NCBI GenBank assembly: GCA_947448395.1
Contig: CANFNA010000010.1
Coordinates: 1 to 38,244 of the forward strand
Source: Chthoniobacteraceae bacterium
GTDB lineage: Bacteria; Verrucomicrobiota; Verrucomicrobiia; Chthoniobacterales; Chthoniobacteraceae
Direction of reading: 5' to 3'
DNA: 38,244 nt
The position numbers and the translations under genes are program-made. The notes under the pieces were generated by a model that saw nothing but the letters and a program-made list of their open reading frames with translations, had not been told where the DNA came from and made no database searches. The number at the start of each line of letters is the position of its first letter. The stretch's first letter is position 1. Shown one piece after another: positions 1,926 through 29,211 of the stretch.

Positions 1926-4900
1926 ATGAGACTAATCTCGACCTGCAGGTTCTCGTCTTTGAGACGAGAACCGCTTTACCCCGTCGCCAAGACTAGCGTC
2001 TTGGTGATTTTGGAACGGGTGATCTTTTTGCTTTGGGTCGCAGGTGTGCTCCTGCTTGGTGCCCAGCCCTCGTTGGCCGCGCCGGTGACTTTCAAAAGTC
2101 CGGTGACCGTCACTGGGGAGGTCGACGTCTTGAACGCAGGCACTGCGGTTTTGGCCTACCGCTACTGGGGTGGTAATAACCTGACACTCAATGGAGTCGA
2201 TTTTGCCACGATTACCTCCACCACGGGCGCGGGAAACTTTGGTCTCTCGGTTGCCGGTGGGATCTATTTCAATGGGTACGGAAATTCGGGAACTTACTAC
2301 AACGCGTTGTCGTCGAATTACCAACAGTTGCTCAATGGGGGCGTTTACAGCGATGGCGGAAATCTGATGACCATCACCTTGGGCGGGCTGACCGCGAACC
2401 GAGCCTATGCGCTTCAAGTTTGGGCCAACGACTCTCGCCCGGGCGACCCGCTGATTTATCGGCGCGACACCCTGACGTCCGCTGGAGGCAACAGCGTTAC
2501 CTTGAACTTCAACAGTCAGCAAATTGCAGGTGGCGTCGGCCAGTATGTGATTGGGGGATTTTTGGCAAACGCAGCAACCCAGACCTTCACGATCACCGGT
2601 TTCCTCGCTCCGGGATATACGCTCAACTCTCCGTCGTCCCAGATCAACGCGATTGCGTTGCGTGATGTCACCGGAATGTGGAGTGGCGACACGAACGGGA
2701 ACTGGGATGCGGCCTCGCTTAATTGGTCTGGTGGGCAGGCGTTTTCCACGATGCCGACGGGAGCGCCGCTCACTTTTGGAGACAAAAGCGGATTGGGCGA
2801 TCCGGTAACGAACGCTGCTCTTACCGTCCAAGCGGCAGGCGTTTCGGTCAACGGCGCGATGAATTTCATTAGTAGTTCGGTGAACTACAGCATCAACACC
2901 GCGGGCGGCACTGTTGGAATATCGGGAACCGGAGTGCTAAACAAATCCGGTGCCGGGCTTCTTTCCCTCGGAGGCACGCACACGTTCACGGGAGGCGTCA
3001 ATCTGAACACGGGCAGTCTCGTTGTCCTTTCACCACGTGCGCTCGGTGCAGGCTCCCTCAATGTGGCAACCGGAACACGGCTGAGTCTCAATGGAAATGA
3101 TCAGTCGCTCAAAGCCGTTGTGAACAATGGAACCATCTCCAACTCCACTGGAGTGGCGACGCTCATGACTGCGGGTTATTCGGGCAGTGGTACGCTCACA
3201 GGGACGGTCCATTTGGGGCTGCTTTCACAGGCCTCGGCCCTTACGCAAACCGTTGCGAGTAACCACTCAGGGGACCTGATCTTGCAAGCCAACGGGGCTG
3301 GGCTACTCAAGGTTTCTGGGGATTTAAATCACACCGGAATGATCATCAACACCGGCACCGCCAACGCCGGCGCGCTTGCGGCAACAACCGCTTTAGTCGG
3401 GGGCTCGGCTGCTTATTTGACTGGCGCGATTGGGAGTAAGGTGACGAAGGTCATTCAGAATAGCCCTACCTCCCCGCTCGTCCTCTACGCGGCGAATGGC
3501 AACTTTGCAGGGCCTGTTGAAATTCAAAGTGGCGCTCTCGTCATCGGAATTAACAAGACCCTTGGCATCGTGAATTTTCCGAACGTTGCCGGCACTGGAT
3601 TGATCACCGTAGGGACCGGTTCCGCCGATGCCGCGCTCGTCTACGCCGCGCGTTATGCGGGTGGGGGAGACAACTTCACGCTCCCCAACAACATCGTCAT
3701 CGCAGGCTCCGGCAAAAACATGATCGTGAACAGCGACTACTCCATGGCGCTTGGCGGGACGCTTACTTTGCAAAATGCCGACGTCATTCTCGCCAACACA
3801 AACCCGGGGAATGTTCTTGGAATCTACGAGTTTTTGAATGTCGAGGGTGGCGTGGTTGGAACTGGGAACGTGATCGTCACCAACTCCAGCGGAGCCGGTA
3901 ATACGACCGTGAGTTTCAACACTCTCCCCCTGAATAATCAGGGCTCTATCACCTTCAACACGGGCTCCGTCCTAGGCGGTGTTCCGGGCACCGGTACCGG
4001 TGGAAACACCATCTCTGGCGGGGTGGGTTCGAACGTCACCGCGATCACCAACGACAGTGATACCAACCCGCTCACCATCAGCGGCGGCTCCATCACGGTG
4101 AATCCCTCGGGACTCACCCTCAACTCGACCGGAAACGCGTCCACTACGGTCTCAGCTCCAACCACTGGAACGGGGGCTCTCACGCTCAATGTTGCTGCTG
4201 CGGGTGGCATCACTATGACAGGCGCCTTTGGACACACCGGAGGCCTCACGTTGAATCGCACGGGCTCCGGCACCCTCTCGATTCCAACTTCCTACTCGAT
4301 TGGCGGGCCTTTCATTTTCAGTGGCACCAATTCGAGCGCGCTCTCGCTGTCCAACAGCATCACGGCTTCCAACACGATGCTCACGCAGGCCAATTCAAAC
4401 GCCGCTCTTACGCTCTCGGGATCTTTGCTCGTGGGAGGCTCTGGAAAAACCATTGTGACGTCGGGTTCAGCCTTCACGCTTTCGGGAGCCGCGAATGGAA
4501 CCGGAAATCTCACCCTGCAGGCAAACGCCTCTGGTGTCCTCACCATGAGCGGTGCGTTCAATGTCGCGGGGACTGTCACCAACACCGGTTTTGGAAATTC
4601 AGGTACGCTCTACTCCACCGCAGGCACCGGACCCGGTTCGGTGCTTTTCACCTCTGCGCTGGGAGGATCCGTCACCCGGTTGATCCAAGACAGTCCGACC
4701 TCTGCCTTGGTTTTTGCGGGGAGTAGTCCGTCGCTGACTGCCCCGATTGAAATCCGCCAGGGGAGGGTGGTTGCGGCTTTCAACAGCGCCGCCAATGTTC
4801 TTGGAAGTGGAACGGTCTACCTTGGTACCGGCGCGACAGATGCCGCGCTATTTTACTCTGGGCGTTATGGGGCACCCGCTGGATCCACGGGCGGGGATGG

Positions 4901-7900
4901 TACGATTCCGAACCCCATTCTGGCCGGAGGAACCGGCGTCGACGTGATTGCGGCCTCAGATTGGAATCCAACTTTCAGCGGACCTATTACGCTCGCCAAC
5001 GATTTGATGATCGCGACCCTGAATTCTTCGGGATCGAAGCTTACTTTTACTGGGGGCCTGACTGGGCTCGGGAATCTTGCCGTAGTGAATGCAAGTGGAA
5101 GCCCGAGCGGAGCGAGCTTTTTTGCTTTCACCACCAAGCCTATCAACACACAGGGCACCCTGACTTTTCTCAACGCCGCCGTGCTCGGTGGTTTGGCAGG
5201 GACCAACACGGATACCAACTCCATCGCGGGCGGCATCGGAGCGAATGTTTCCTCCATCTCGCAAGCCAGCTCCACAAACCCCCTGACGATCAGCTCCGGA
5301 ACCGTTTGGGTTGGCGCGGTTGGAAAGGTGATCAAGGGAGGCGGCGCTGCACTGACGGTTTCGAGCCCGTTTGAGGGTGCAGGTGATGTCACCATTCAGA
5401 ACAACGCGGCCTCGCTCGCTTCGTTTTCCGGAGCGATGAATTTCTCTGGGACCCTCGTCAATTCAGGGACCGCCTCCAGTGGCAACTGGGCCACTTCCGC
5501 CGGCACGCCGAACGGTAGTGTCCTTGTCACTGGCGCTCTCAAGTCGGGAATCAGCCGAATCGTGCAGGATAGTCCGACGTCAGCCCTTGTGGTTTATGCG
5601 ACCAACACAAACCTTTCTGCCCCCATCGAAGTCCGTCGTGGAAACGTCGTGGTTGCCAATAACGTCGCGCAAAGCAGCATCCTTGGAAGTGGAACGATTT
5701 ACTTGGGCGTGGGTTCCGATAACGCTGGGCTGATCTATGCGGGCCGCGCGGGAATTCCGGGTGCTACCACCGGAGGCGGCGTGTACACGCTGACCAATCC
5801 AATTAAGGTCAGTGGAACTGGTACCAATTTGATTGCGGTCACGGATTGGGGTCTTTTGCTGTCTGCACCCCTGACCTTGGGTGGAGATTTGACGCTTGGA
5901 GTGGCCAATGGGGGCGGCTCTAGCCTCACGCTGAATGGGACGATCAGCGGGACTGGGAACCTGACGCTGACCAATGCAAGCGGCAGTTCTGCGAATGCCT
6001 CGAGCGTGACTTTCAACGGCTCACTCAATCATTCAGGAACCGTGACCGACAATGACGCGCCGCTTTTGGGGGGCGCAGCGGGTGCCAATGCGAGTGCCAT
6101 CTCGTATTCGATCACTGGCGGCGTGGGTCCAAATGTGACTGGCATCTTTCACAGTTCGATTGGGGGGCTCACCATCTCTACGGGTACCATCACGGTGGGG
6201 GCATCTGACTTGTCGCTCAACACGACTGCGTCATCGGAATTCAACGTGAGTGCGCCGATCGTCGGTACCGGCGCGCTCAACCTAAATCTAAACGGTTCGG
6301 GCGCTCTTAAAGTCAGCGGGGCGATTTCAGCGTCGGGCGGTTTGGCTGTGAACCGAACCGGTACTGGAGCAGTGACGATTTCAGGCGCGGTGAATGTCCC
6401 GGGCTCGCTCGAAAACTTGGGCTCCGGAACGGGTACGGTAACTGTTAGTGGCGCTTTGGGTGCAAGCGTTACGGAGGTCCACCAAAACAGCAAAAATTCC
6501 ACATTGGTTCTTTCCGGAAACAACGGGTCTTTCACCGGGCCCGTTAAGGTTTCCGATGGAACTTTGACGCTCGGTGGCTCCTCCGGAGCGGAGTTGGGCG
6601 CGCAGGCCAGTTCGGGCACCGTCAACATGAACGGCGGGAAGCTGAATTTCGGAAGCTACACCGCCTACACCGTTGGCGCGATTGCGGGCAGTGGGTCCTT
6701 GAAGCTCACGAACTCAAGCAACGCCGCTGTGGCGCTCACCTTGGGTAACAGCCGGAACCTGTCTGCAATCTTCTCGGGTTCCATTTCAGGAAGTGGTCAG
6801 ATTCTCAAGGTGGGTACAGGCACATGGGATTTGCAGGGCACTAGCATCTTCGCGGGTTCGGGGGCGAGTGCTGGCGAAATTTGGTTCAAGGGTGGCACGC
6901 TTCGGGTGAGTAGCGGCGCCAGAGTGGAGGGGCTTGCGACCCTAGCGGGTCAGACGGGAGGCGCGCTCGTGATTACCAACGCGACTGTGACCATGGGGGC
7001 GGCCGGGAACTTTGCAGCAGGCTACGGGATTGCCGGAACTTCGTCTGTCACCGTCGGGGCCTCTGGGGTTCTGAATTTGGGAGCGGGAGCCAGTTCGAGC
7101 GGAGGAAAGGTATTCATTGGCGGAGGAAACCTTGGAGGGGCAATGGGCAACGGGATTTTGACGCTCACCGACAACGGCTCCGTCAATGTGGATCCGGGCG
7201 CTGGCGCTTCTCCCTTCGAGCATCTTTATCTGGGCGGCTACGGTGGGTATGGGACGCTCAATCTGGACGGGGGAACGCTCACCACCCAGCGCGATATCGC
7301 CGATGGCACTGGTGGTGGGTTGATTAACTTCAACGGTGGCGTGCTGCGTGCCGCAACCAGTGCGCTCAGTCTCAACTGGCCGGGGCTTACGGCTTCGGTG
7401 AAGGCCGGGGGAGCTGTGATCGATACAAATGGCTTCAACATCACCATCCCGAAGGCGTTCGCGGAAGCAGCTGGTTCCCTTGGCGGCGGGTTAAAAAAAA
7501 TCGGGTCCGGCACGCTCGCGTTGTCGGGAGTCAACACCTATACCGGCTCGACGGTGGTCGAGGCAGGAACGCTGCAAGTTGGGAATGGGTCCACCACGGG
7601 TTCGTTAAACACTGCGAGTGCTATCACTGTGGGAACGGGGGCGAGTGTTGCGTTCCAACGCAGTAACGCGGTGGTGCAGGGAACGGATTTTGCCGCTGGG
7701 ATTTCTGGCGCTGGGGGAGTCATTCAACGCGGAACGGGAATGCTTACCCTCAGTGGGACGAACACCTACACGGGGCCCACAATCGTTCTGTCGGGTTCGG
7801 TGACTTTTGACGGCCCAAATGCGTTTCCGGCGAACTCCGCGCTCACGATTGCTTCGGGTGCCACGGTCGTATTGCAGAATGGGGCGCAGGTCAGTGATTT

Positions 7901-10900
7901 TACGGGCGCCGGCACTTTGTTGTTTGGTCCGGGATCTCCGGTGTTGCTCGGTGGAGGAAATGCCTCCGGGACTTATAGCGCCGCCATCTCGGGCACGGTG
8001 ACGGTGACGAAGGCTGGTACAGGCTCCATGACGGTTTCCGGAAATAACACCTACACTGGCGCGACTTTCATCAACGCGGGAACGCTGATGGCTGGCGGAA
8101 CGCAGGCGTTCGGGGTGAATTCGCTGGTGAAACTCGCCAACGCCGCAGGCTCCACGCTCAATCTAAATGGTTTCAGCAACACCATTGGCGCGCTCGTCGG
8201 TGGGGGCTTCTCCGGTGGAAACGTGGTGTTGGGAGCCGGAACGTTGACGTTAAACGCCAATGCTGCCGGAGCCTCTGACGTAGTGAAAGTGGCCAGCGGG
8301 AATTTTAGCTTTCACAGTTTGTTTTTGAAGAGCGACGGAACCGCGTGGGCGGCAGGGAAGAACGATAATGGGCAACTCGGGGATGGAACGACCGTTCCAA
8401 AAACGATGCCAGTCCAAGTGCAGAGCGGTGTGACGGCCGTGGCCGCTGGCCAGAACCACAGTTTGTTTCTGAAGAGTGACGGAAGCGTGTGGGCAAGTGG
8501 CTACAACAACAGTGGTCAACTTGGCGACGGGACCACCGTGAGGAGGACAACGCCAATTCAGGTGATGAGTGGGGTGGCTGCTGTGGCTGCGGGCCAGAAC
8601 CACAGTTTATTTTTGAAGAATGACGGAAGCGTCTGGGCCACAGGTTACAACAACGAAGGTCAGCTAGGGGACGGGACCATGGTGAATAAGACGACGCCGG
8701 TTCAGGTTTTGACCGGGGTGACGGCAATTGCTGCAGGTCAGAACCATAGTTTGTTTTTGAAGAGTGACGGGAGTGTGTGGGCAACTGGCTACAACAATTA
8801 TGGCCAGCTTGGGGATGGAACGATCGTTCAAAAGACGATGCCGGTTCAGGTGATGAGCGGGGTGACCGCCGTAGCGGTGGGCGCCTACCACAGCTTGTTT
8901 TTGAAGAGTGACGGGAGCGCGTGGGCGGTTGGCTATAACAACATGGGCCAGCTTGGAGATGGTACGCTCGTAAATAAGGCGACTCCGGTGCAAGTGCAGA
9001 GCGGGGTGACGGCAGTGGCCGGCGGGTACGGCTATAGTCTCTTCCTGAAGATGGATGGAAGCGTGTGGGCGACCGGTGACAACAGTAGTGGACAACTTGG
9101 GGATGGAACGGCCGTTCAAAAGACGATGCCGGTTCAGGTGATGAGCGGGGTGACCGCTCTGGCAGCGGGACAGAGCCATAGCTTACTTCTGAAAAGGGAT
9201 GGCAGCATTTGGGCGACTGGGGGCAATTACTACGGCCAGCTCGGGGACGGAACAACCGTGGACAAGAGCCTTCCCGTGGCCATGTTGAATCCCTCCGTTT
9301 ACGAATCCGCGATTTCCGGATCTGGCGGTCTGGTGGTATCGGGTTCCGGCGCGCAGGTCTTCACGGCACTTCACACGTACTCCGGAGCGACTACTCTCAA
9401 AGGAGGGATTTTCTCAGTGTCCGCGCTGGCCAATGGCGGTCAGGCGAGCGGTCTCGGCTCTTCGTCTAACGCAGCGTCCAACTTGGTGTTTGCGGGCGGT
9501 ACGCTTCTTTACTCGGGGACTTCCGCGGCCAGTACAGATCGAGCCATGACGATCTCCGGGACTGGTACGGCAACAATCCAACTCGCGAACGCAGTGAGTT
9601 TATCGTTGAGCGGAGCCATTGGAGGAAGTGGGGGATTCAGCGCGACGGGATCGGGGACGATTGTGCTGAGCGGTAGCAATACCTATTCAGGAAAGACTTC
9701 GGTGTCGTCGGGTTCGCTGAGCGTTTCGACGCTGAACAAAGTGGTGGGAGGGGTTTCGGCTAGCGCATTGGGAGCGCCGCTGACGGCAGCTAACGGAACG
9801 ATCGACCTCGGAGCATCGTCCGCCGTTGTGCTTGTCGTCACGGGAGGCTCGCAGACAACCGATCGCATCCTAAATCTCGCCGGTGGTTCGAATGGGCTCA
9901 CGCTGGACCAATCCGGCACTGGAGCACTGGTGTTTGCGGGTTCGGTAACGGCGACAGGAGCGGGTTCGAAGACCTTAACGCTGCGAGGCTCGACGGCTGG
10001 CACTGGCGAAATTTCGGGAGTCATCTCCAACAACAGCACGACCAACAAAACCGCCCTCTCCAAATTGGGATCGGGAAAATGGATGCTGTCGGGCGCGAAC
10101 ACTTACTCAGGCAATACGAGCCTATCCGAAGGTATCTTGGCGCTCGGAGGTTCTGGCGCTCTGGGCGCTGGCAGCCTGAATATTACTGGTGGAGGTCTCG
10201 ACGCGACGATCCCTCTAACGCTGCCTTCGATGGCGCACGTTTGGAGTGGCCCCTTTACCTTCGTTGGATCGAATGCGTTGGATTTGAGTGCCGGTTCTGT
10301 GACGCTTACGACCTCTCCCACGGTGACCGTTTCTGCGGGGGCTCTGACGGTTGGGAATGTGAGTAGCGGCACGGGGAGTTATGGGATTTCGAAAGCCGGT
10401 GTGGGTACGTTGGTGCTTTCCGGAACAAACAGCTACCTCGGGTCTACAACCGTGAATGGAGGAACGCTTCAAGTGAACGGTTCGCTCGCGAGTCCCACAA
10501 TTTCGAACAACGCAAAATTGGTGTTCTCTTCGATAGGGAGCCAGAGCTACGCCGGTGTGATCAGCGGTAGTGGTTCTCTGACGAAGATGGGTTCGGGGAG
10601 TCTGACGCTCAGCGGGACGAACAGCTACACGGGAGGGACGGTTGTGCAGGCTGGGTCTTTGCTTGTTGGGCCGAACGCGCTCACCACCGGCTCTGTGTCG
10701 GTTGCGGCGGGCGCGGCCGTGGTGTTTGATAACTCAGCCGGCAACCTCAATTTGCCGCAATTAACCGTTTCGGGAGCGGGTCAAATTCTGGTCCAGAATC
10801 CAAACTACACCGTGTTTTGGTCCGGCGGCGCGGCTGGGCTCATGCCTCCCACGATCCTCACGCACCCGGCGAATACGGTGGCCGAGTTGGGTGCTTCAGC

Positions 10901-13900
10901 AACGCTGAGCGTTGCCGCATCGGGCGGCGGGACCTTGACTTACCAGTGGCGCAAGGATGGCGTTTCGATTGCGGGCGCAACCAATGCCAGTTTCACGATT
11001 CCAGCAACCCAAGGGTCGGACGCGGGCACTTACACTGTCGCGGTGAGTAATGGCGCTGGTGGCGTCACGAGCAACGGGGCCGTTCTTTCGCTCATCAACC
11101 CGGTGCCCACCATCTTGACATTGCCGACCGCTTCTTCGGTTTACAATGGGCAACCGCTCTCCGCCTCGATCCTGAGTGGGGGTTCCGCCTCGGTGTCGGG
11201 GACTTTCGCGTTCAGCACGCCAAGCACCGTGCTCACGAGCGGCTCCGGATCGCAAACCGTGACTTTTACTCCGACAGATCTGCTGAATTTCGGGACCGTG
11301 AATGTCTCGGTGAATGTCCCCGTCCTGGGTCCTGGCAGTCCAGTGATCTTGGGCGATGCCAATGGGTTTGGTGCGGAGACGCTCACATTCTCTGGAACGT
11401 CGTCCCTGACCAAGATTGGAAACGGAACGATCACCCTTTCCGGAACCAATTCGTTCACGGGTAAAACCTGGATTCAGAATGGCACGCTGCGCGTTTCGTC
11501 TCTCAACACTGTGCCGGGTCTGCCTTCGAGTTCGTTGGGAGCGCCGAGTGACCTTGAGTCTGCGGTGATCCATTTAGGTTCCTTAACGAGCACGGGCGTA
11601 CTTGTGGTGAACGGCACTGCGCAAACAACAAACCGCCCGTTGAATCTCGCCGGGACCACTGGCGGAGGCATTCTCGACCAATCCGGCACAGGCGCGTTGC
11701 TCTTCACGGGAAGCGTGACTTCCAATGGCGCAGGCTCAAAAACCTTCACTCTGCAAGGTTCGACGACGGGCTCAGGCGAGATCTCGGGTGCGATCGCCGA
11801 TAATAGCCCCGCAAACAAAACCGCGCTGCTGAAACTGGGCTCCAGCAAATGGACCTTGTCAGGAATAAACACCTATTCCGGTGGCACGACGGTCTCGCAG
11901 GGGACGCTGCGCATTACGAGCGCCAGCGCGCTTGGCACCGGTGGACTCACGCTGAATGCAGGTGCAACCCTTGAGACTTCGGGAGCCATCCTCTTCCCCG
12001 CCGTTTCGCAATTTTGGAACGGGAACTTTAACCTGCTCCCAGGAGGTGCTCTGGATTGGAGTGCGGGCAGCGTGACGCTGCAGTCGGACTCAACGGTCAC
12101 CGTGTCCGTCATTCCGATGCCGACAGGCGGAGTCATCGCATCGTTTGGATTCAACGCAGATCCGAACGATACTTCGGGGAACGCGGAACACTTTACCACC
12201 GCTAATGCGATCACCTACGGCGTGGGGCGGGATGGCGCCGCAAACAGTGCCGTCATCTTCAATGGAAACTCGAGTTACCTCCATCAAGCGTCTCTAAGTC
12301 AGGTTCCCGGTTCGCAGATGACAATTGCGGCGTGGATTAAAACAACGGCCATAGACGGTGTCTTGGTGGGTATCGGTCGTTCAGGGGGCGATACCAATGG
12401 TGAGCAGCTGTTTTCGGTTTCGGGCGGTTTTCTGAAGTATTGGGACTACTATGGCAGCTATGGATTCCCGGATGGTGTGACGTCCACCCAAGCGGTCAAT
12501 ACAGGGTCGTGGCGGCATGTTGCCTTTGTGAAAAACGGAGCGTCTGGCACCTACTATGTCGACGGTCAACCGGCAGGGACCATCTCGGGGGCGGAGGTCG
12601 CGCACGTCGGGCACGATTTTGTCATTGGAAAAGATTATCGCGATAACGGCACCTACTTTAACGGCGCCATCGATGACTTGAGTCTCTTTGGTCGTGCGTT
12701 GAGCGCGCAGGAAATCGCGGTCCTTGCCGCGGCCGCACCGGCCTCTGTCCAGCTAGCCAATCTTTCGGGGGCGCATTCGCTTGGCAAGGATGGGCCTGGA
12801 ACCTTGATCCTTTCCGGCACCAACACCTTTGCGGGTCCGCTTAACGTTCTGGGTGGATCGCTGATCCTAGATGGCCCTGGGGCGTTGCCATCGAATGTCA
12901 CGATCAACGCGTCTGCTGGAACTACCGTGCTCTTGCAGAATGGAGCTGCGATTCCAAATCTGTCCGGCTCGGGTACACTCGCTTTCGCGACTGGATCCAA
13001 CGCGGTTTTGGGCCTTAACAATGAGTCGTTAAGTTCTGCACTCCTTCTTTCTGGCAGCTCCGCGGTGACCAAGGCAGGAAACGGCACGATCACCCTGACC
13101 GGATTGAATTCCTACACAGGCACTACCTCGATTTGGAGCGGAGCGTTGAAAGTCAGCTCGCTCAACAGCGTTGTGGGCGGAACGGCAACGAGTTCGCTCG
13201 GCGCACCGACAACTGCTACGAATGGGACCATTCATCTCGGCAGTCTCACCTCAACGGGGTCGCTCGTCATGATAGGTGAAGGCGCAGCCTTTGCTTCCAC
13301 CACTGTCTACAACCTTTCTGCGGATGGCTCTAACCCATTCCTCCTATCCATCGACCTCGGCCAGAACTGGACCTTTGAGGCTGAGTACAAGATGAATTCC
13401 GGCAATGACCTGAACACACTTTTCTCTTACGGCAGCTATCACGATGGCATTTTGATCCGGACGCTCCGCGGCGATGCGCTCTTTTTGAGGGAAAACTTTT
13501 TCGGAACCATTGATATTTTCGGAGGCACCACGACTAACGGACAATTTGTTCCGCTCAAAATTACCTATGACAATGGGATCCTAAAGATCTACGCGTCGGG
13601 TTCATTGCTTCGCACCATGGAGGTGCCGGGAATCTTGAGTCCCGTTGACAAAACGCTTCGTATTGGCTCGGCGCAGCACGACAACTCGGAAGGGTTGGAC
13701 GGGCAGGTGCGTAACATTCGGATCACCAAGGCTTCGGGTAGTGGTCCATCGAACAGCACGGACCGAATGATCAACTTGGCAGGGACCACTGGTGGTGGGG
13801 TGCTCGATCAATCGGGCACCGATAGCGTTGCGTTTTCGGGCTCGATTACAGCCTCTGGCGCTGGAACCAAGACGCTCATTTTACAGGGCTCGACCACAGG

Positions 13901-16900
13901 CACGGGAGAGCTTTCCGGGGTTATTGCCAATAACAGTCCCTTAAATACCACGGCGTTATTCAAGCAAGGCTCGGGCGCGTGGACGCTCTCCGGAACCAAC
14001 ACCTACTCAGGCGGGACGACGCTCGCCGCCGGAACCTTACGGTTGAAGAATCTTGCAGCGCTCGGAGCGGGGTCTCTCACAATCACGGGTGGCTTCCTCG
14101 ATAATGCGTCCGGTTTCGACATGCTGATTCCAGGAACGCTCGCCCAAACTTGGGCCGGGGATTTCGGATTTATCGGCACGAACAGCCTGAAGTTTGCAAA
14201 GACGAATATCACGCTCGGCACAGATGTGACCCTTGCGATTGCCGGTTCGGCTTTGGAGTTGAACGGCGCGGTTCTTGGAGGACGTCAACTGACGAAGGCC
14301 GGACAGGGCACCCTCGTTTTGGGAGGCACCAACGTTTTCTCGGGTGTCTCGGTTTTCGCGGGAACACTTCAGCTCTCGAGTACCGGAGCGGCAGGGGCAG
14401 GAAACGTCTCGATGGCTTCCGGTGCAGTGGTTTCGCTCTCTCCTGGCGTCGTGTTGCCTGCCGGTTTGATCCATCGCTGGTCGTTTAATGAACTTGCGGG
14501 GAACGTGCTCACGGACTCCGTAGGAACGGCTCACGGAGCGATCGTGACGCCATCCGGTTCACCGAATGCATCCATCGCGGATGGAAAACTCCGAATGCTC
14601 GGTGGGAACAAGGGAACGGCCAGCTACGGAAGCCTTCCATCGAACCTCACGGCGGGGCTAACCGACATGACGATCGAAGTTTGGGCCTCACTGGATGTGG
14701 TGTCGGGATGGGCTCGGCTATTCGATCTTGGGGACGGAATCAACGCGGCCACCTCGTTTGTGGTGGCGGTTTGCGCGGGGACAGACACTGCTCACCCCGC
14801 CATTCATGACTGTGCTTACACTGGGGATGTTCTTTCCAGCGTTTCCCTAAGTCCGACCCTGGGTCAAACTTATCACTGGGCTTTGGTCTGGGACTCTTCG
14901 GATCATTTGGTGAAACTCTACAGAGAGGGCGTTCTCCTGTGCTCCTTTTCCAACGCGGGACACACGTTGTCTCAAATCCCCTCCTCTGCTTTCTGGCTCG
15001 GGCGCTCTCATTTTTCAGATCCGACTGCGGCGGCCACTTACTCGGAAGTCCGGATGTGGAACCGAGCACTGACACCCCAAGAAATTCTTCTTAACCGAAG
15101 TGCTGGGCCAGACGCCATGTTCAGTTCAAACTTGAGTTTTTCAAACGATCTAAACGGAGCCGGCTCCTTGCTAAAAGCTGGACCTGAAACGGCCGTGATC
15201 AGCGGATCCAACAGCTTCTCTGGCGGAACAACCGTAGCGAGCGGAACCCTGTCTGTGGCGTCCCCGTCCGCCTTGGGCGGCGGCTCTGTCGCGGTCAGCG
15301 CTGGTGCGACACTGGATCTGCATTTCGATACCGATGCCATCTTCTTCAACACGCTCTCCGGAGCTGGGGTTGTGGTGAAATCGGGTAGTGGCAGTGTGAT
15401 GCTTGCGGGCTCCAGCACCCTATCTGGGCCGCTGCTTGTTCAACAGGGCAGCCTCATCCTCGGATCCAGTACAATGCTAGGGTCGGGCAGTATCCAAGTA
15501 TTGCCTGGCGCGGTCTTGGCCTTCAATCCGACCAGCGACCGCGTACTCCCGAATACGATCACTGGATCGGTCGTGAACCTGAATCCGGTATTCAAAGTGA
15601 GTTGGAACGGAGGCGCTGTGGGAGGCCCATTGCCGGTTCTTGCGGGCTCTCTGAGCGCGAACGCTGAAGCTTGGCGTCCGTTCTCTTTCCAAGTGAACGC
15701 CACCAACCAACCCACCGCTTACGCGGCCACCGGCTTACCGCAGGGATTGAACATCAATGCGACCACCGGCCTCATTACCGGTTCCCCCCAGACCGCCGGC
15801 CAGTACAACGTCCAACTCAGCGTCACGAATCCCGGTGGAACCGCTACCGCTGCGCTCGCGCTGTCTGTCGATACCGTTCCCATCGTCATTGCACTCAACT
15901 TCGCCGACAGCGCTTCGGAAGCACTCGATAGTGTGACGCCTAAGGGCCCTCTTGGAACGAAACGCTGGAACGCAAGCACGGCAGGACAGTCTACTGGCTC
16001 CCAGACCGCTTTAGTTGATGACTTGGGGAATCCAACCTCAATCAACGGAAGCTGGAGCAGCGCGAATACGTGGAGAAACTCTTCCAGCACCGCTTCTCAG
16101 GATGGGAAAATCATCCATGGATATTTGGATGATGCGCCTGCCTCGGTGACCCTCACAAACATTCCGTTCGCCCGCTATAACGTTTATGGACTCGTCGGGA
16201 GTGACAACGATCTGAACCCCTACAACTCGCTGGATTTCCGCGTCAATGGAACGTGGGTTTTTGGCGGATCGGTTGCGTCGCTTGCCCCAGCCTATGGATC
16301 TTGGGAGGCTTCAGGACAACAATGGATCCAAATTGATAAAGCCACAAATCGCCGTGGCAACTACTGGAAGATGTCAGGACTCACCGGCGGTACTTTGACG
16401 ATCCAAGGTCAAATCGCTCAGGTACCAAACCGCGGGAGCCTTGCAGCAATTATCATCGAAGGGAATCCTGGGCCGGCATTCATGACGCAACCGTTGTCGT
16501 CCATTGTCACAGCCGGTTCCGCCGCGACGCTGACGGCAAATGCCGTCGGGACTGGGTCCATCACTTACCAATGGAAAAAAGATGGTCTCGCCATTCCAGG
16601 AGCCAGCAATTCGACTTACACCATCGCTTCCGCTCAGGCCCTTGATGCCGGAATTTATGAGTGTTTGGCTACGGACAGCGTGGGCACGGGCAAAAGCAGC
16701 CCAGCGGAGTTGGTCGTTTATCTGCCGGTGAACTTTGCTTCACAACCGCAGTCAACCGGCACTGCGTTGGGAGGCTCTCTAACTCTCAGCGTCGAGGCGA
16801 CTGGTACCGGACCGTTCACCTACCAATGGCGTCGGCAGGCGGCCGAGGGTGCGCAATCGCTCAACGTGGAGAGCACGCTGACGGCTCGTTATACCTTCAA

Positions 16901-19900
16901 CGAAACTTCCGGAAGCTCGGCTTCGGATGACTCCGGCCATTCTTACCACGGCACCTTGTACAACATGAACGACGTGGCCAACCGCGTCACTGGTGGTTTC
17001 AGCAGGGCGTTGTCGTTCAATGGAAGCAACAATTTTGTCCGAATCCCCAACTACACGGCTCCGGATTTCACGATCGCATGCTGGGTTAAAACGACCCAAG
17101 TATTTCCGCAGGGGGAGGAAACCTTCTTCGGCACGGGCATCCTGTGGTCGGATGTTGGTGGAGCCGCCAATGATTTCATTCTGGGTGCTACGAGGAGTGG
17201 TTCTGGCCTGAACCGACTCTCATTCTGGGATGGAAACGCGAACGCTTATGTGAGCGGAAATACCGCTATCAACACAGGAAGTTGGGTGCACGTGGCAGTC
17301 ACCCGTGATTCGGTCACTCATCAGACCCGACTTTTTGTGAATGGCGAGCTTGACGCACAGGGAACTGCAGGCAGCGGCTTCCTCCGAGCAAATCCGACGA
17401 TCGACATCGGCGGCAATACTGGCGACGGGCGCTATTTCAATGGGTTGATTGATGACGTTCACATCTACTCAAGAGTACTGACTCCCGATGAAGTTGCCGA
17501 GCTTGTGCGGTTCTCCGGTATTCCCGGTGCCGCCGGACCCACGCTCACGCTCAATCCTGTGCAGGCAAAGGATGCTGGCACTTATGAATGTGTGGTCACT
17601 AATCCGGTGGGCTCCTTTGTGAGTGGCAGCGCAACTGTGAGCGTCGGCATTCCACCGACCTTCAGCGCGCAACCGGTGGCAGGCTCGGTGCTGGCGAGTG
17701 GAAGTTATGCGTTTAATGTCACGGCAAGTGGGACTGCTCCGCTTGCGTACCAGTGGCGTCGCAATGGGGAGCCGCTTGAAGGCGGCACTGGGGCATCGTG
17801 GATGATCGGGAATGCGGGTGCGAATGACGTCGGTGCGTACAGCGTCATTGTGTCTAACGCTTATGGTCAGGTCGCGAGCAATCCCGCCAACCTCGCGGTC
17901 AACTTCCCGCCGATCATACTGGTGTCCCCAACGTCCATGGAGCTCACGCCCGGTACCAATGCGCAGCTGCGCGTCGAGGCCGCTGGGACTCCGCCGCTCA
18001 ACTTTGACTGGGTGAAGAACGGGAGTATTCCGATCACCGGTAGTAATGTGGTCAGCGGCGGTTCCATCTCTACGCTTGCCATCATAAACGCCGGAACTAT
18101 CGACTCTGGATCTTATCGGGTTCGGATCTCAAATGCGTTCGGATCGATTTCCAGTGGCACCGTCATGGTGACCGTGGGGGCGCCCCCGAGCATTCTCGTT
18201 CAACCGCTCGCGACGAATCTCCTCGTCGGCCAAACTCTCAACTTGAGCGTCACGGCGGCTGGAACCGCACCGCTGACCTATCGGTGGACCAAGTCAGGCG
18301 TGACGGTTCCGGGCGCCACGACGTCTACGTTGACTGTCCCCTCGGCGGGCACGGACAAGGCCGGAGTGTATCAATGCGTTGTCACCAATTCGATCGGATC
18401 AGCCACTAGTAATCCCGTGAATGTGGCGATAAACGTCCCCCCTGCGATCACGCAACAACCGATCGCGGGAGCCGTTGTCCTAGGCGGAAACGTTTCCTTC
18501 AACGTCACAGCGATTGGCACCGGTCCCCTCTCCTATGTGTGGCGAAAAAACGGGATACCAGTCTTTGGGGGTAGTGCACCGCTACTGTTGATCCCCGGCG
18601 CGTCACCGGCAGACGCAGGCGCATATGACTGCGTCGTGACCAGCGCGTTTGGAAGTGTCACCAGCGCCATGGCCAATCTTCTGGTGAACGTGCCGCCGCA
18701 GATTGTGGCGCCACCTGCGTCTCTGACGCTGGTATCCGGCGGCACGGCAACTTTTTCGGTTTCGGCGTCCGGCACAGCTCCGCTTTCTTACCAGTGGCGT
18801 AAGGACGGTGTGCCGTTGCCAAGTGCGACAAACAGCCAGTGGACGTTGGTTGGAGTGAAACCCAGCGATGCCTCTGCGTATGACTGTGTGATCACCAACA
18901 TCGCGGGATCCGTAACTAGCCCAGTGGCGAAGTTGACCGTGAATCTACCGCCGACTTTAGGCGCGACGCTTCGTCCAGAAATGAGTCTCACGTTTAATTC
19001 TGTGACGTTCCGCGTGAACCCCAGTGGCACGCTGCCGTTTGCCTTCCAATGGAGAAAGGCGGGCGTTCCGATCTCCGGAGCTACCGCGGCATCATGGACC
19101 ATTGGGGCGTCTGAACTCTTGGATCCAGCTCCATACGACTGCGTGATCACTAACGTAGGAGGCAGCATTGAAACCGAAAAGGTCGCTGTTCCCTTGCGGA
19201 TTACCGCGCAGCCCAAGGCGCAACTGATCACTGCTGGCGGAGCGCTGAACCTGAGCGTTCAAGCCACGGCGACTGGGCCGATTCAGTACCAATGGTTCAG
19301 AAATGGCGCGCCGATTGTGGGTGCCAATGGGTCTAGCCTGCAAAAGCTGAGCACCAGCCCCGAGGACAACGGACGCTATTTCGTGCAGCTCACGCTTGAG
19401 CCGCTGACCCTCCGAAGTGAAGAAGTGATGGTCGAACAAGTCCTGGCCAACCTAGCGATGACCCCAGCAGTCGGCGCTACGCTGGTTGTTGGAGGCAGTA
19501 GTACCCTTTCGGTCGAGGTCACCAATGGAGCTTTCCTCGCTGAAAAACAGATCCCGCTCACGTACTCGTGGACCCTGAATGGAAAGCCGGTTTCGGGCGC
19601 TTCCTCGTCGGTCTTGCAACTGCAGAACATTCAGCCGAGCGGCGCGGGAGTCTACGAGGTGACGGTGCGAGCCGGCAGCTTTGGGACGTCCACGGCCAAA
19701 GCCGTTGTTCAAGTCGCAGATATCGGAATCATCGAGCAGCCCCAAAGTGCCCAAGTTCTTCTTGGCGGCGAAGTGCGCCTGAAAGTGGCACCCCTTGCTC
19801 CCGAGGGTGTGCCGGTGTCGTACCAGTGGCGCAAAGGCGGGCTTGCCATACCGTCAGCCACCGCCTCGACGTACACTATTTCCAATGTGACGGATTCGGA

Positions 19901-22900
19901 TGTGGCCGCCTACGACGTCGAAATCACCGCCGGTCCGGCACGCGTGGTGAGCCAGTCAGCGACGGTCGGCCTTCTCAAACCAGTCGTGCTCGATACCGCC
20001 CAGTTCGCTCGGCAGGCCCGACTGTTGAATCCCGGCCAGCCGCTGTCGCTCCGCGTAGTCGCCACTTCCGGATCCGAGCCGCTCGCTTACCAGTGGTACC
20101 GAGATTCGCAACTACTCCAGGCGGAAACCAAGGCTGTCCTGAACCTCCCTGCCATCAAGCCTGAGGACGCAGGCCTTTATTCTGTGCGCGTGTCTAACGC
20201 TGCAACGCCGGTTCCTGTTGATTCCGGAACCGCACAGGTTCGTGTGAACAGTCTTCCGCCCGCTGGTGCGGTGTCATTCTCCTTGGACGGTGGACCGGTG
20301 ACGCAGGGCGCAAGGGTCGATGTGACGCCTGGCCAGACCGTTGAGCTCTCCGTCATCCTGCCGGATTCGGTGGACAAGGAAAACCTTGCCTACACGTGGC
20401 GCCGTAACGGAGTTGCCCTCCCGAGCGCAACCAATGCCACGTTGTCGCTGGGCGCTGTGAAGTCCATCGACAAGGAAGGCGCTTATGATGTGGTCGTGCG
20501 CAACACGATTGGGTCTGTCCTGTGGCGGTCCGTGGAGCTCGTGTTGACGGAACGCCCGCTGATTCGCCAAGGCGATCTCATGCCGCTCACCGTGCTTTCC
20601 GGGTCCGATTTGAAATGGAGTGCGTTCGTGGTCAATCCCGTGACCCCGTCCGTTCGGTTCAACTGGCAGCGCGATGGCAAACCTGTCGCTGGGGGAACAT
20701 CGGCGGTCCTCGAGATTCGCGGTCTCTCCAAGGCAGAACATGCCGGTGTCTATACGGTCAGCGGATCCAACAGCTTCAGCACCGTCAGCAGCTCCGCTGC
20801 AAGGTTGACTGTCATCGATCGCGCACAGATCACAGGCCTGATCGCCGGCGGCACTTACAATCCGGGCCAGCCCGTCAAATTCGAAGTGCAGACCACAGGG
20901 GACGCCGTCCAAATCCAATGGCAACGTGACGGTCAAGTGATTCCCGGCGCTACGGGCGCCGCGTTCACACTGCCATCGATTTCGTCAGCGGATGCAGCAT
21001 CGAAATACTCTGTTCGCGTATTTAACGAGGACCCCTTTACGCATCGTATTTTGAGTAGTGAAACACGGGTTGTCCCAGCATTTGGTGTTCGGTCGCCGGT
21101 GTCTTTCGGCGAGCTTTCGGTCGGAGGCGCAAACGCGAACCTCTTGAAGAAAGACCAAGTGGCTACTTTGAACATTCCAGTGTTCGGGACAGGCCCCTTC
21201 CAATTCCAATGGCGCAAGGACGGAGCGCCGATCTCGAGCGCGAGCGGGACCATCCCAAATCCTGGTCCGCTCAGTTACACGGTGCCGCCCGCGGGCGAAT
21301 CGACGAAAGGACGCTACGATGTCGTGGTCACCAATATGGTCGGGGCCCTCGTGAGTCCCGCGGCGGACCTTGGATTGCGGGTTCCAGTGAGCATCACGCA
21401 GCACCCGCAAGGTCGTGCAGCTAACTCAGGCACGCCTGTCACCCTGACTGTTGGCGTTGCAGGCACTGGGCCGTTCACCTTCCAATGGTCCAAGGACGGA
21501 CAGGCTCTGCCTTTTGCGAATGGGCCGACCTATACCATCCCGAGTTTGAGCGACGCAGACGAAGGCACCTACGCTGTTTCGGTTTCAGATGAAGATGGTG
21601 CCGCAGCCACCAGCAACCGAGCGACGGTGGTTCTCAACGATGACGTCACGATTGTGGCTCAACCCGAGAGCCCAGCACCGATCCTGCTGGATTCAACCCA
21701 GACACGCGGCCCGATTACCCTCTCCATAGGCGCGGTCACCAAAGGGCGTGCGCTTCGTTACCAGTGGAGAAAAGACGGCAAAGTCATTCCCGGAGCGGTT
21801 TCCTCTGTTTATCGCGTGGAAAAGGTCACCCTTGCCGATGCTGGCGCCTACGATGTGCTCGTGAGCAGCGGGGGAAGTGCCGTGGCAAGCGAACCGGCGA
21901 CTATCACCGTCTTCGCGCCGCTGGCGGTTCGCTTAAAGCCGGAGAATGGTTATCCGGAGGCGGTTTTTGCGAAGGCGGCCGCCTCCAAGCTGTTCCGGCT
22001 TGAGGCGAATGCGACTAGCTCCGGCGACTTGATCTATCGGTGGTTCCGCAATGGAGAGGCCTATGCCGAGGGTTCGAGTATCGAAGTTGAGGCGGAGGAG
22101 GAACGCGCTCTCTATCGCGTCGAAGTGACCCTGAGTCACGGCGCTACACCTGTGGGCACCGTTTCCTCGAAGGAAGTTCCCGTCCAATTGATGGTGCCGG
22201 CATCGATCACCACGAATCCATCCTCTGTAACCGTCGAGGCCGGAAAGCGGGCCGCCTTCCTTATGGATGGAGTGGGTGGTGGGTCTCTCGCTTTCACTTG
22301 GGAAAAGTTGCGCAGTGGACGATGGGAGCCCGTGTCGGGAGCGACCGGCAAAGAGTTCAAACTGAACACCGCCAGATTGAGTGATGCAGGCTCCTATCGA
22401 GCGGTCGTTGCAAATGCCCGCAATGCGGCCACTGCGGAAGTGAGTCTCGTTGTCCGTGAGGCCGAGGTGATTTCCAAACAACCCGTCGCGCAAACCATCA
22501 ATGCAGGGGATTCTGCGGTCTTGGAAGTGGAAGCGAAAGGGGTCGATCTTTCCTACCAATGGCGCCGTAATGGTGTGTCGATCGGAGGGGCTTCTGCCGC
22601 GGGTTACACCGTGACGGAGGCGGGGCTGTACGATGTATTAGTCAAACACGCTTTTGGCTCCTCATTGAGCGAAAGTGTCCGTGTAACGGTTCGTCAACCC
22701 GTCAAAATTTTGCGTTCTCCCGCCAATACGAGCATGCGGCGCGGCACGCAGGCAACCCTGTTTGTGAAGGCGACTGGGACAGAACCCATCGCTTATCAAT
22801 GGCGCAAGGATGGGGCTCTCCTCACTGGTGAAACCAGCGCTCAAGTCGTTGTCACCAGTGCCGGCGTCTACGATGTGGTCGTGACCAATCCGGCGGGCAG

Positions 22901-25900
22901 TACCGTGAGCGATCCTGCCGCCGTCACTATTCCAGACCCAGTCGAAATCAAAGTGCAGCCAGCCGCCGCACTTGTTTCGCGTCCGGGAGAGAGCGTACAG
23001 CTGAGCGCAGTGGCTTCAGGAACGCCGCCGGAGGGCCAAACCGCTCTGACTTACCAGTGGAAATGTTGGAACGGAAAAATCTGGGCCGATGTTCAGAATG
23101 GCGCGGGAATCAGTGGGGCACAGAGTGATACTCTGCGGATCGCTGGGGTCCAGCCTCTGACAGCCAACTCTGCTGGATCCGCTGGCATGTATCGGTTGGA
23201 CGTCACCGGTCAACTCAACACCCTGTCAACCGTGCCTTCCCAGTTGACTGTTTTCTCGCCGCCGTCGATTACAAGGCACCCGAGTAAGGCGGTCGTGAAA
23301 CTTCCTGGAATGGCGGTCTTCAGCGTTGCGGTCACCGGCACTCCGCCGTTCACCTACAAATGGTTCGAGAACGGAGTCGCCATGACAAATCCGAAGGTGA
23401 CCGATTCCGGAAGCCGTTTGGTGGTCAATGCCGACACGGCTGCTTTTGACGGCCGCCAGTATTCGGTAGAAGTTCGGAACGATTACGGGACGGTTACGAG
23501 TGACTCCACGAAGCTGTCTGTCGTCTCCGCCCGGTTGGGTGTGGCTTTCAGCCAGCTGGACGAGGCCACTGACGAATCGAAGCGAGTCAAAGTCGTCGCC
23601 AAAGGTGGCACATTTGCGCTGAGCGCAACGCCGATCGCTGTTGAGGAAGGAACGCGCCTGGCCTATCAGTGGCGTCTAGATGGGATCGACATCTCGGGAG
23701 CCACCTCCAGAACCCTCACGCTTAATCCGGTGTCCAAGGAGTTTGCGGGTCTTTACGATGTGAGCGTGCGTTTGCTCGTCGATACTCCCGAGGGCGAAAA
23801 TGATGGGGTGGAGCTGGCGCGAGGAACCCAGCCGGGGACCTTGCTGGTGGTCGATGGAGGTCCGGTCGTTCAGCCTTTCGGCGAACAAAGCTTCCGCCCA
23901 GGACAAAGCTTCTCATTGGCCCCAGTCGTTCAAGTGCTGGATCCCGTCACTCGTACGCTGGTGCCTGCACTTGCAGCGGGTGTGACTTTCCAATGGAGAA
24001 AAGACGGTGTCGCGGTGGCCGGTGGCGTATCGGCCGCAGGCGTGCTTGCCGTATCGCAGGCGTCTTCCACAGACACCGGTGTCTATAGCGTTGTCGCTTC
24101 GTACGGAGGAATCTCAGGGGACCCTGTAATTGCAAAGGTGACGGTCGAGCCTGCGCTCAAAGTGACCGTCACAGCCGCCCAAGCTGCGTTATCCGGCAAT
24201 CTGCTTGCTGGCACGCAGGCTCAGCCGCTTGAGATCGTGGCCCGCTCCCGATTGAACCTCTCTGCGACCGTGGTGAAAGGCGATGGCCCTTTCAAATATC
24301 AGTGGCGTCTGAATGGTTCGAATCTTCTCGGAGGCACTTCGGATCGATACACCGTTCCTTCCGTACTGGCGCGAAACGCCGGGCGTTACGATGTCGTGGT
24401 CACAGGCGCAACGGAGAGGGTCGTGAGCGACTCCATATACGTCCGCCTCCACGATCCGCTCACCATCACCGCTCAGCCTCAAGCTGTCACCGTTGTGAAC
24501 CCAGGTTCGAAGGTCAGCATTCCAGTCGGCTTGAACACTTCGGATGCGTCTTTCCAGTGGTTCAAAGGGACCGGCTCCAACTCGGTAGCCATCCCAGGAC
24601 AGACAACCAACGTGCTGACCTTTTCCGCGGTGCAGGAATCGGATGATGCCAGCTACCGTCTTGTTGTCAGTGGCAGCAATGGCCTTGGCCGATTGGTCAG
24701 TAACGTTGCCAAGATTGTGGTGAATAAGCCCGTGAGAATTACCAGCTCGCCGGTGTCACCGTCCGGATCCTTGGTTCCGGGCAAAGCAGCTTCGTTCCGC
24801 GTCACCGCCTCTGGCACAGGGCCGCTGACCTATCAGTGGACGCGCGACGGGGTGCCAATTCCCGGCGCAAACAGTGACCAGTTTACCCTACCCTCGGTTT
24901 CCGTGTCGGATGCCGGAGCTTACCGTGCGGTGGTTCGCAGCCCCGTCAACACCGATGGCGTGGCCTCCGATCCGGCGATATTGGTCGTTTCCCTGCCCGT
25001 CTCGATTACGCGTCAACCGGAGGATCAAACGCTGGCAGTGGGCGATAAACCACCGGTTCTGTTGTCTGTGACTGCAAATGGGGATGGTGTGCTGAGTTAC
25101 CAATGGCGCCGTAATGGTTTGAGCATCACTGGCGGAACTCAGGCTGCGCTACTCCTACCCAAGGGAGTGGGATTCTATGATGCAGGAAACTACGACGTCT
25201 TGATCGCCAACACAGTTGGTGGAATTCCAGTGTCGAGAGTGGTCAGCCGCGTAGCGTCTGTCCGCGTGAATGGAACCCCTCCTGAAGATGGTGGCGCATC
25301 GATCACCGATGGATGGCGGGCGAACGAAGGCGAGACCGTCATGTTCCCTTGCTATGGCGAAACCGCGAATTGGAGTCGGGTTGGTTCGGGAAGTCTGTCT
25401 TTCGATCTCGAACGTACGAAGGGAATCACCGGAAGTGCAGTGCTTACTTTACGCAACGTGAAACCGGTCGATGCAGGAACGTACGCTGCTGCGCTTCTCT
25501 CCAACGGCACCCTCACTGGGAAGACTGTGAAATGGATCCTCGATATCGTGCCGGTTCCGGTGATCGACAAAGATCCAGTGGATGTGAAGGTGCTTCCTGG
25601 GGGCAAAACTTTGGTGAGCGCTGGATTGACCCTCACCAAGGACACTCGACTGCAGTGGCTCTTCCAATCGGCGAGCGATTCGCCTTGGGTGGCGATCCCC
25701 GGAGCGATTGACAGCACATACAACATTTCGAACGCCTCCGCGCGCGATGGCGGATACTACCGCCTCGAAGTCTCCAACTCCGCCGGTACGGTGACCAGTC
25801 GCAGTGCGAGGGTTACCGTTTACGAACCGGTGGGTGTTACCGCATCGATGCTGGTGGGAACCAGTGTACAAGGCGGCTCCCTCCTAAATGGTCGAATCTC

Positions 25901-29088: not shown

Positions 29089-29121
29089 GAGTATCGACCT
29101 TCTCTTTGAGGGTCGATGCTC
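29089..29121 (+). terminator. Strong hairpin after the giant gene, probable terminator
   Basis: Seventeen bases after the stop, bases 29089-29102 pair with 29108-29121 as a 14-bp stem (two G-U pairs) around the loop TCTTT; the core is ATCGACC with GGTCGAT. No long T-run follows, so it is not a classic intrinsic terminator; it may act with Rho or as a 3' stabiliser. It covers the upstream candidate ATG at 29116, which favours the downstream start at 29212 for the next gene. Confidence 0.5.
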
Positions 29122-29211
29122 TTGCGATTCTTTCGCCTGCAAAGTGGTTTCCGATTCATCCCGCACAAGCTTTGGCCTTATCCTTGGACCAATCTGTTGC
29201 CCGTAAAACGC

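Follow-up and report, generated by a model that had tools for sequence, protein, structure and literature searches.

Introduction

Lectin domains are inserted in the propellers of sialidases, e.g., the Vibrio cholerae sialidase, and the passengers of beta-helix autotransporters bear an extra globular domain (domain 2 of SPATEs such as Hbp). Here, we analyze a giant protein gene of a Chthoniobacteraceae bacterium in which four LamG domains and one RCC1 propeller are nested within repeat units. The gene lies in a stretch of 38,244 nucleotides (nt) of GenBank assembly GCA_947448395.1 (contig CANFNA010000010.1, positions 1 to 38,244, forward strand), which as a whole is referred to as the window. 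The host is a freshwater member of the Verrucomicrobiota, and the assembly of the source genome comprises 3.18 Mb in 268 contigs.

Domain insertion, i.e., an A1-B-A2 arrangement, is reported for 20% of multidomain proteins, where some families occur only as inserts while more versatile ones act as both host and insert (Schaeffer et al. 2026, PMC13114784). The main text of that article does not contain the words laminin, concanavalin, immunoglobulin, propeller or beta-helix. Huge proteins are reported to be enriched in bacteria of the Planctomycetes-Verrucomicrobia-Chlamydiae (PVC) superphylum, with Big_9 and cadherin as recurrent domains of the bacterial ones and Laminin_G_3 of those from archaea (PMC11573180).

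We consider it probable that the protein is explained as a whole by compact domains inserted into a host rod, at sites shared within a gene family, by copying of filled units as composites and by changes of host.

Results

Five domains interrupt units of one protein

Features are listed in Table 1. In Pfam searches, LamG1, LamG3 and LamG4 score 92.0, 66.4 and 97.3 bits for Laminin_G_3 (PF13385), i.e., above its curated cut-off of 27.6 bits, and the RCC1 insert comprises seven RCC1 repeats (PF00415, 231 bits). LamG2 is marginal and straddles the cut-off, with 24.9 bits in one search and 28.7 bits in another. Since hmmsearch on whole giant proteins missed domains, chopped proteins were used instead.

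To assess the interruption of the host units, 60 amino acids (aa) upstream and 60 aa downstream of each insert, with limits set by eye, were each searched alone against 17 proteins and compared with 40 composition shuffles per event. For all five inserts of the window, the two flanks match side by side (gap of at most 10 aa) in one intact unit, and for none of them is any shuffle as good as the real flanks (0/40 each). The weaker of the two flank matches reaches 30.4 bits for RCC1, 60.1 for LamG1, 82.8 for LamG2, 52.4 for LamG3 and 44.3 for LamG4, with the best of the 40 shuffles at 25.8, 23.1, 28.5, 26.6 and 20.8 bits, respectively. A shuffle control with an 18-bit threshold was uninformative, as it let through 15 to 20 out of 20 shuffles for each window insert, and is superseded by this test. 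Neighbouring repeats dominate the lists of interrupted units from the flank search, and no counts were taken from them; the number of filled sites is based on LamG hidden Markov model matches, with flanks read by eye.

RCC1 and LamG1 to LamG3 interrupt a long repeat module (about 100 aa) between strands and not the 30-aa core of the Pfam PATR family. Aligned with the two intact X modules, the LamG2 host is cut just before S(Q)TTDR..NLAG. LamG4 splits one immunoglobulin (Ig) domain between profile positions of about 35 and 39. Split hosts of the A1-B-A2 form are found for Ig, FGE-sulfatase, module X and, interrupted by FGE, for LamG itself.

The initial annotation had placed these five domains, four LamG and one RCC1, as nested inserts in one gene, which agrees with the Pfam identities and the flank tests. 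Its intact counterparts for the LamG1 to LamG3 units exist as well (module X twice, those of LamG1 and LamG3 seen in translation), and the halves of the Ig profile indeed flank LamG4 at the C-C' loop. Its coordinates hold to within a few residues except for RCC1, where 8313-9320 is shifted about 11 aa downstream.

Table 1. Inserts, host units and gene within the window (positions in nt).
Feature	Position	Strand	Remarks
RCC1 insert	8280..9287	+	seven RCC1 repeats; interrupts a PATR-type module between strands, which continues from NPSVYESAISGSGGL
LamG1 insert (Laminin_G_3)	12126..12740	+	after ..STVTVS; host resumes ASVQLANLSG..LGKDGPGT
LamG2 insert (divergent Laminin_G_3)	13275..13754	+	splits module X between ..TSTGSLVMI and STDRMINLAGTTGGGVLDQSG
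LamG3 insert (Laminin_G_3)	14463..15116	+	in PATR-type module
LamG4 insert (Laminin_G_3)	16836..17519	+	in C-C' loop of Ig domain
Intact module X, empty LamG2 site	9678..10202	+	
Intact module X, empty LamG2 site	11448..11972	+	
Split Ig, first half	16722..16835	+	strands A to C, ends ..YQWRR; first part of Ig profile match 3-58, which starts at aa 4938
Split Ig, second half	17517..17645	+	Ig profile 39-81; aa 5198-5240
Giant protein gene	1926..29072	+	single open frame, 9,048 aa, holds all domains and inserts

Predicted structures

In the AlphaFold2 (AF2) model of LamG2 with its host, the predicted local distance difference test (pLDDT) is 77-91 over residues 131-270 (the insert covers 124-283) and the predicted TM-score (pTM) is 0.49. 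The host beta-helix reaches a pLDDT of 58-84 downstream of the insert and at most 54 in the upstream blocks. LamG/LNS-type folds are prominent among the best PDB matches of the whole model, which include AbnA domain 4, laminin G and neurexin LNS domains at a target TM-score of about 0.5. In the model of LamG4 within Ig (pTM 0.60), the Ig halves show a pLDDT of 85-95 (residues 1-40) and mostly 87-93 (residues 271-310). Judged from these confidence values, the model is consistent with closure of the split Ig across LamG4. Fold matches of the LamG4 model in the PDB are pentraxins and AbnA domain 4, the latter being also the nearest solved chain by sequence (E 5.5e-8). Both LamG2 and LamG4 models thus resemble concanavalin-like jelly rolls, at target TM-scores of about 0.5-0.6. 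In the LamG4 alignment, flanking PATR sequence was kept on two LamG rows for register, and the first LamG strand is misaligned.

Shared sites and composite copies in the genus

The compared set comprises nine contigs of six congeners (G001-G006) and two of the own genome. Read by their flanks, the RCC1 site is filled in the window, G002:C38 and G005:C10, the LamG1 site in the window, G002, G003, G004 and G005, and the LamG2 site in the window, in G001 and twice in G004. For the LamG3 site, 12 filled copies are spread over six genomes of the genus if the window is counted in. G000:C23 and G003:C1 share a further filled PATR site, and one more is filled in G003:C1 only. In the PATR-site copies read, the cut is at the same place. 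Among the LamG matches in 12 proteins (n=36, i.e., 32 general and 4 LamG2-type), 28/36 were read as nested. Empty counterparts of filled sites occur in the same protein in G000:C23 (flanks 78 and 80% at the aa level) and in G003:C1 (60/73 and 63/80 aa), where the insertion is plainly visible in both cases.

These comparisons show that filled units are copied as composites. As four of the five sites are common to congeners, their filling appears to date to the ancestral gene family, and together with the multiplied LamG3 composite this suggests that most inserts were inherited with their module. The occurrence of the same architecture in separate congener assemblies makes an assembly artefact unlikely.

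Beside its HrpB-like or nucleotidyltransferase neighbours, the giant gene was not found in 18 congener stretches, several of which are short contig ends. Two long frames in these stretches are weakly similar to it (L055, 110 aa at 32%; L060, 113 aa at 35%) but do not represent the same gene. Giant frames elsewhere in the congener genomes carry many LamG and RCC1 domains. Without a with/without orthologue of the window gene, homologous modules were thus compared. Matches spanning the LamG4 junction in G008, G021, G034 and G037 were rejected: among the matches listed, LamG is followed by other sequence and is not nested in Ig.

The 3' end of G004:C13 (L140) and the 5' end of G004:C6 (L138) carry the same stretch of about 35 aa in one open frame. 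If this overlap is real, the two frames (8,060 and 7,311 aa) could be parts of a single gene that encodes about 15,300 aa.

The LamG2 lineage in other phyla

When GTDB species genomes were scanned with the LamG2 module, eight loci were obtained, three of which are the congeners' PATR copies. In the other five, the match covers the LamG part, and each of them (5/5) was read as embedded in other domains. L151, L152 and L154, from one GTDB family, carry LamG2 in a Big_13 Ig-like domain, the Pfam match of which breaks off at profile position 85-86 of 102 in both L151 and L152. L153 (a metagenome-assembled genome (MAG) of Chthoniobacter) and L155 (a Burkholderiales MAG) carry it in a cadherin-like domain. 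Flank tests gave 0/40 shuffles as good for L151, L154 and L155, while the nesting of L152 was judged from its 85% identity to L151. LamG2 is thus nested in 9/9 loci (the eight scanned and the window), one of them weakly supported. The hosts of this lineage, from three phyla, are PATR, Big_13 and cadherin-like domains.

Laminin_G_3 scores of these relatives scatter around the cut-off, with L138 (36.0 bits) and L154 (34.4) over and L151 (23.4 and 27.1), L152 (18.3) and L153 (19.7) under it; for L155, Pfam gives no Laminin_G_3 match. No LamG2 was found in viral contigs. In an even draw of 387 genomes of the phylum, LamG2 was matched only in the own genome, and congeners known to carry it are absent from these matches. 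It is present in 3/95 genomes of the family of G436. L154 is titled Candidatus Kuenenia, yet it falls into the same family as two Planctomycetota lake MAGs, such that its label may be wrong.

FGE-sulfatase and RCC1 as hosts, and reciprocal nesting

On G000:C64, a LamG sits inside an FGE-sulfatase domain, with FGE profile positions 7-141 before and 159-254 after it; one intact FGE domain lies directly upstream of the split one. This LamG is 66% identical to the PATR-nested LamG of C23 in the same genome. The tally of other FGE loci holds 41 first-half and 34 second-half matches, among the matches listed. There, 34 half-pairs are adjacent (median 39 nt apart, 10 genomes), and for the seven remaining first-half matches the second half is also close by. 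Since 41/41 checked loci are thus without LamG, the LamG insertion into FGE is likely the derived state. L074 (G000:C64) also has a weak ALTTAQ-like repeat and PATR repeats.

In G003:C1, two LamGs are each preceded by an incomplete RCC1 blade, with profile positions 4-30 and 3-30 out of 50, and are followed by more blades; the second incomplete blade scores 18.8 bits, i.e., under the cut-off of 21.7 bits. In a LamG tree of 29 rows, both of these RCC1-nested LamGs fall into the clade of the LamG1 site (site 1, support 100/99) and the FGE-nested LamG into that of the C23 site (site 5, 100/100), while long branches elsewhere make deeper joins unreliable. Read together with the host domains, the tree shows that inserts change hosts, i.e., one LamG lineage is found in PATR and FGE-sulfatase and another in PATR and an RCC1 propeller.

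Conversely, a LamG of G010:C238 is itself a host. It is broken by a segment without Pfam family and then by a stretch of about 282 aa, in which FGE-sulfatase is matched over profile positions 7-224 of 255 (128 bits). The matching LamG of G003:C20 has the first segment and no FGE, with flanks of 198/263 and 91/107 identical aa (75 and 85%). Thus, the same LamG is available with and without an insert, as the initial annotation had proposed to look for, although not at a site of the window. By these alignments, nesting is reciprocal: LamG occurs in FGE and FGE in LamG. The interrupted LamG covers aa 148-816 of frame 2-4984 in L204 (G010:C238) and aa 1979-2353 in G003:C20 (L144). Its segment without Pfam family measures roughly 170-190 aa, and C-type lectin and TSP3 repeats are found in the same protein.

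Direction of change and junctions

We counted intact loci in the 17 proteins for which both flanks reach at least 30 bits, which gave about 46 for LamG1, 46 for LamG2, 30 for LamG3, 29 for LamG4 and 6 for the C23 site. Intact units are in the majority where counted, so insertion is likelier the derived state. The same holds for the FGE loci; intact units do not look like the derived state, in line with the direction initially assumed.

Short direct repeats, for which the initial annotation had proposed to inspect the insert junctions, are absent or not significant. In 11/12 events, the longest shared junction words are no longer than those of random pairs, and the word of L153 is marginal (9 nt, 12/190). 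An imperfect 13-nt direct repeat (11/13, by eye) flanks a LamG of G003:C1 (aa 4043-4065 and 4280-4293, L131-L133); by a rough estimate it is not significant, given the number of events. That is, no target-site duplication was found in the 12 junction events and the G003:C1 case. Low GC content was rejected as a sign of recent transfer: the total GC of inserts is below that of the flanks in 11/12 events, but GC at third codon positions (GC3) only in 7/11 (without L152).

Layout of the protein and its surroundings

PATR-type beta-helix repeats make up the first half of the giant protein and Ig domains mainly the second half, as found by Pfam. PATR (PF12951) exceeds its cut-off with 55-130 bits in each of six pieces that span the first half. 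There are 41 Ig domains in total, one at aa 2976-3054 within the PATR part and the rest at aa 4852-8851, one of them split. They correspond to 42 matches of an Ig profile trained on the giant protein itself (40 unsplit domains and the two halves of one), and 36/40 unsplit matches cover more than 65 of the 81 profile positions. The N terminus is signal-like by eye, and the protein is probably secreted. In the last 1,748 aa, Pfam (E 0.001) gives no barrel family as in Type V autotransporters. The C-terminal 193 aa (window 28491-29069, aa 8856-9048) match no distinct Pfam family. They are similar to the C-terminal end of G004:C6 (32% identity, E 8e-23) and, by eye, to that of G003:C1, and are a candidate anchoring or sorting region.

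Downstream of the gene, window positions 29116-31148 encode a nucleotidyltransferase and an APH-type kinase, which are unrelated to the nesting and, as a pair, reminiscent of sugar-recycling enzymes.

Discussion

How the inserts may have arisen

The protein would form a very long rod, i.e., a PATR-type beta-helix followed by an Ig stalk, as its families suggest. Comparison of interrupted with intact units shows that its inter-strand loops have received in-frame insertions of compact beta domains, namely jelly rolls of the LamG type and an RCC1 propeller of seven repeats. Flank tests and the split Ig likewise favour loop insertion over end-to-end joining, as the initial annotation had argued. 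LamG and propeller folds have neighbouring ends, such that a loop can accept the domain without breaking the host. Four of the five sites were filled in an ancestral gene family, with subsequent composite copying of the filled units. This is at odds with five separate events in this gene, as first proposed, since the RCC1 and LamG1 to LamG3 sites are common to congeners and the LamG3 composite has 12 copies; what stands of the proposed repeated process is that the same type of event occurs in other genes and host folds. Given no significant junction repeats and no consistent GC3 shift, we favour rare illegitimate or short-homology recombination as the putative source of the insertions, with selection presumably retaining those that fold. 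The inserts would protrude laterally from the rod as putative binding heads for glycans or surfaces, a mode of display that is plausible.

Alternative explanations

Ordinary domain shuffling would place the LamGs at repeat boundaries, where the array merely makes them look nested. Within a repeat array, the sequences to either side of a junction are always alike; a PATR beta-helix has no natural unit boundary, and the flank test cannot separate a cut within a unit from a cut between units of such a continuous helix. G003:C20 even provides a true end-to-end LamG between whole Ig domains. The term nested is thus strictest for the Ig case, and the Ig, FGE and Big_13 cases are exempt from this doubt. 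There, LamG4 sits mid-Ig, the LamG of C64 mid-FGE, an FGE lies inside LamG in G010 and Big_13 is cut within its profile in L151 and L152. The PATR sites, too, are cut at one position in the copies read. Ordinary shuffling is refuted for the Ig and FGE cases, and we regard it as improbable overall. Slightly more credit, although still little, goes to one or two ancient insertions that spread by module duplication and recombination between giant genes, i.e., without any hopping of domains. Composite site-3 units have multiplied, as this would have it, and LamGs do cluster by site (9 label changes, with 7 the minimum possible and a shuffled mean of 16.2). However, the site clades sit on long stems of 0.79, 1.31 and 1.53 changes per column, which suggests separate source lineages, and module duplication alone is insufficient for sister LamGs in folds as unrelated as FGE, RCC1 and Big_13.

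A dedicated mobile element (insertion sequence (IS)-, intein- or retron-like) could account for the sporadic spread over three phyla, the recurrent in-frame loop insertion and the imperfect repeat at one G003:C1 junction. But junction words are no longer than random in all events except the marginal L153, and no element-like ends were noticed, where neither ends nor a shared target motif were systematically searched; such an element seems very improbable to us.

Several observations weigh against in-frame loop insertion with subsequent composite copying. GC3 of all window inserts (5/5) lies inside the gene's own 5-95% range, i.e., composition gives no sign of recent arrival. RCC1 has the weakest support in the window, both by its flank score (30.4 bits) and by only one intact locus at 30 bits; LamG4 is moderately modelled (pLDDT below 50 for residues 43-94 and 138-151), and no second LamG-in-Ig was found among the material examined. 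The congener proteins were picked for long LamG frames and are not a random sample. Six LamG matches of G003:C20 are end to end between whole Ig domains and hence no inserts, two of them being halves of one LamG that is itself an interrupted host, and the hosts of the G001:C50 and G006:C1 LamGs were not assignable on reading. The cadherin-like host of L153 is weak (2/40 shuffles as good). Furthermore, the LamG2 of the window is closer to planctomycete L151 (66%) than to those of the congeners (57%), and the branch uniting the four PATR-hosted LamG2s is unsupported (61/12), such that independent insertions at one site may have occurred. Finally, function is deduced from fold only.

Significance and comparison with known systems

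Domain insertion is often regarded as a single event after which host and insert remain paired. In the present gene family, filled and empty sites are both numerous, a single insert lineage occupies several host folds and a filled/empty pair exists between congeners. It thus becomes possible to test what loops tolerate a domain, whether an insert is transferred as a unit and by which route giant bacterial surface proteins diversify their binding, while annotation of domain order alone would miss the nesting. Related inserts in unrelated folds, other proteins and other phyla seem to spread as cassettes and not only as beads on a string. A broader, tentative reading is that several LamG lineages, RCC1 propellers and FGE domains are plug-in cassettes that move between unrelated extracellular folds, LamG2 across phyla, and even into each other, and that are inherited inside the loops of their hosts; we hold it as possible rather than probable. 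If it is true, they would serve bacteria as a modular means of equipping any scaffold at the surface with binding heads. Under this reading, nesting may be the sole form in which the LamG2 lineage occurs.

Searches of open-access PMC listed no title that describes such nesting, which does not mean that it is unpublished. PMC11573180, in the sections considered, treats content and order of domains and not their nesting. In SPATE-like passengers, a globular domain bulges from a beta-helix rod as it does here; they have one domain at one site, while the giant protein has several sites, LamG and RCC1 folds and, by Pfam, no barrel. Sialidases share with G003:C1 a jelly-roll lectin nested in a beta-propeller, but they are enzymes, whereas here an RCC1-like propeller is part of a giant repeat protein. 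As in the architectures of PMC13114784, one domain interrupts another, with LamG and FGE both acting as host and insert. Unlike those, one LamG lineage occurs here in up to three unrelated hosts, composites are copied and nesting with FGE is reciprocal. Domain insertion as such is well known; what is new are host-switching LamG lineages in giant proteins of Verrucomicrobiota.

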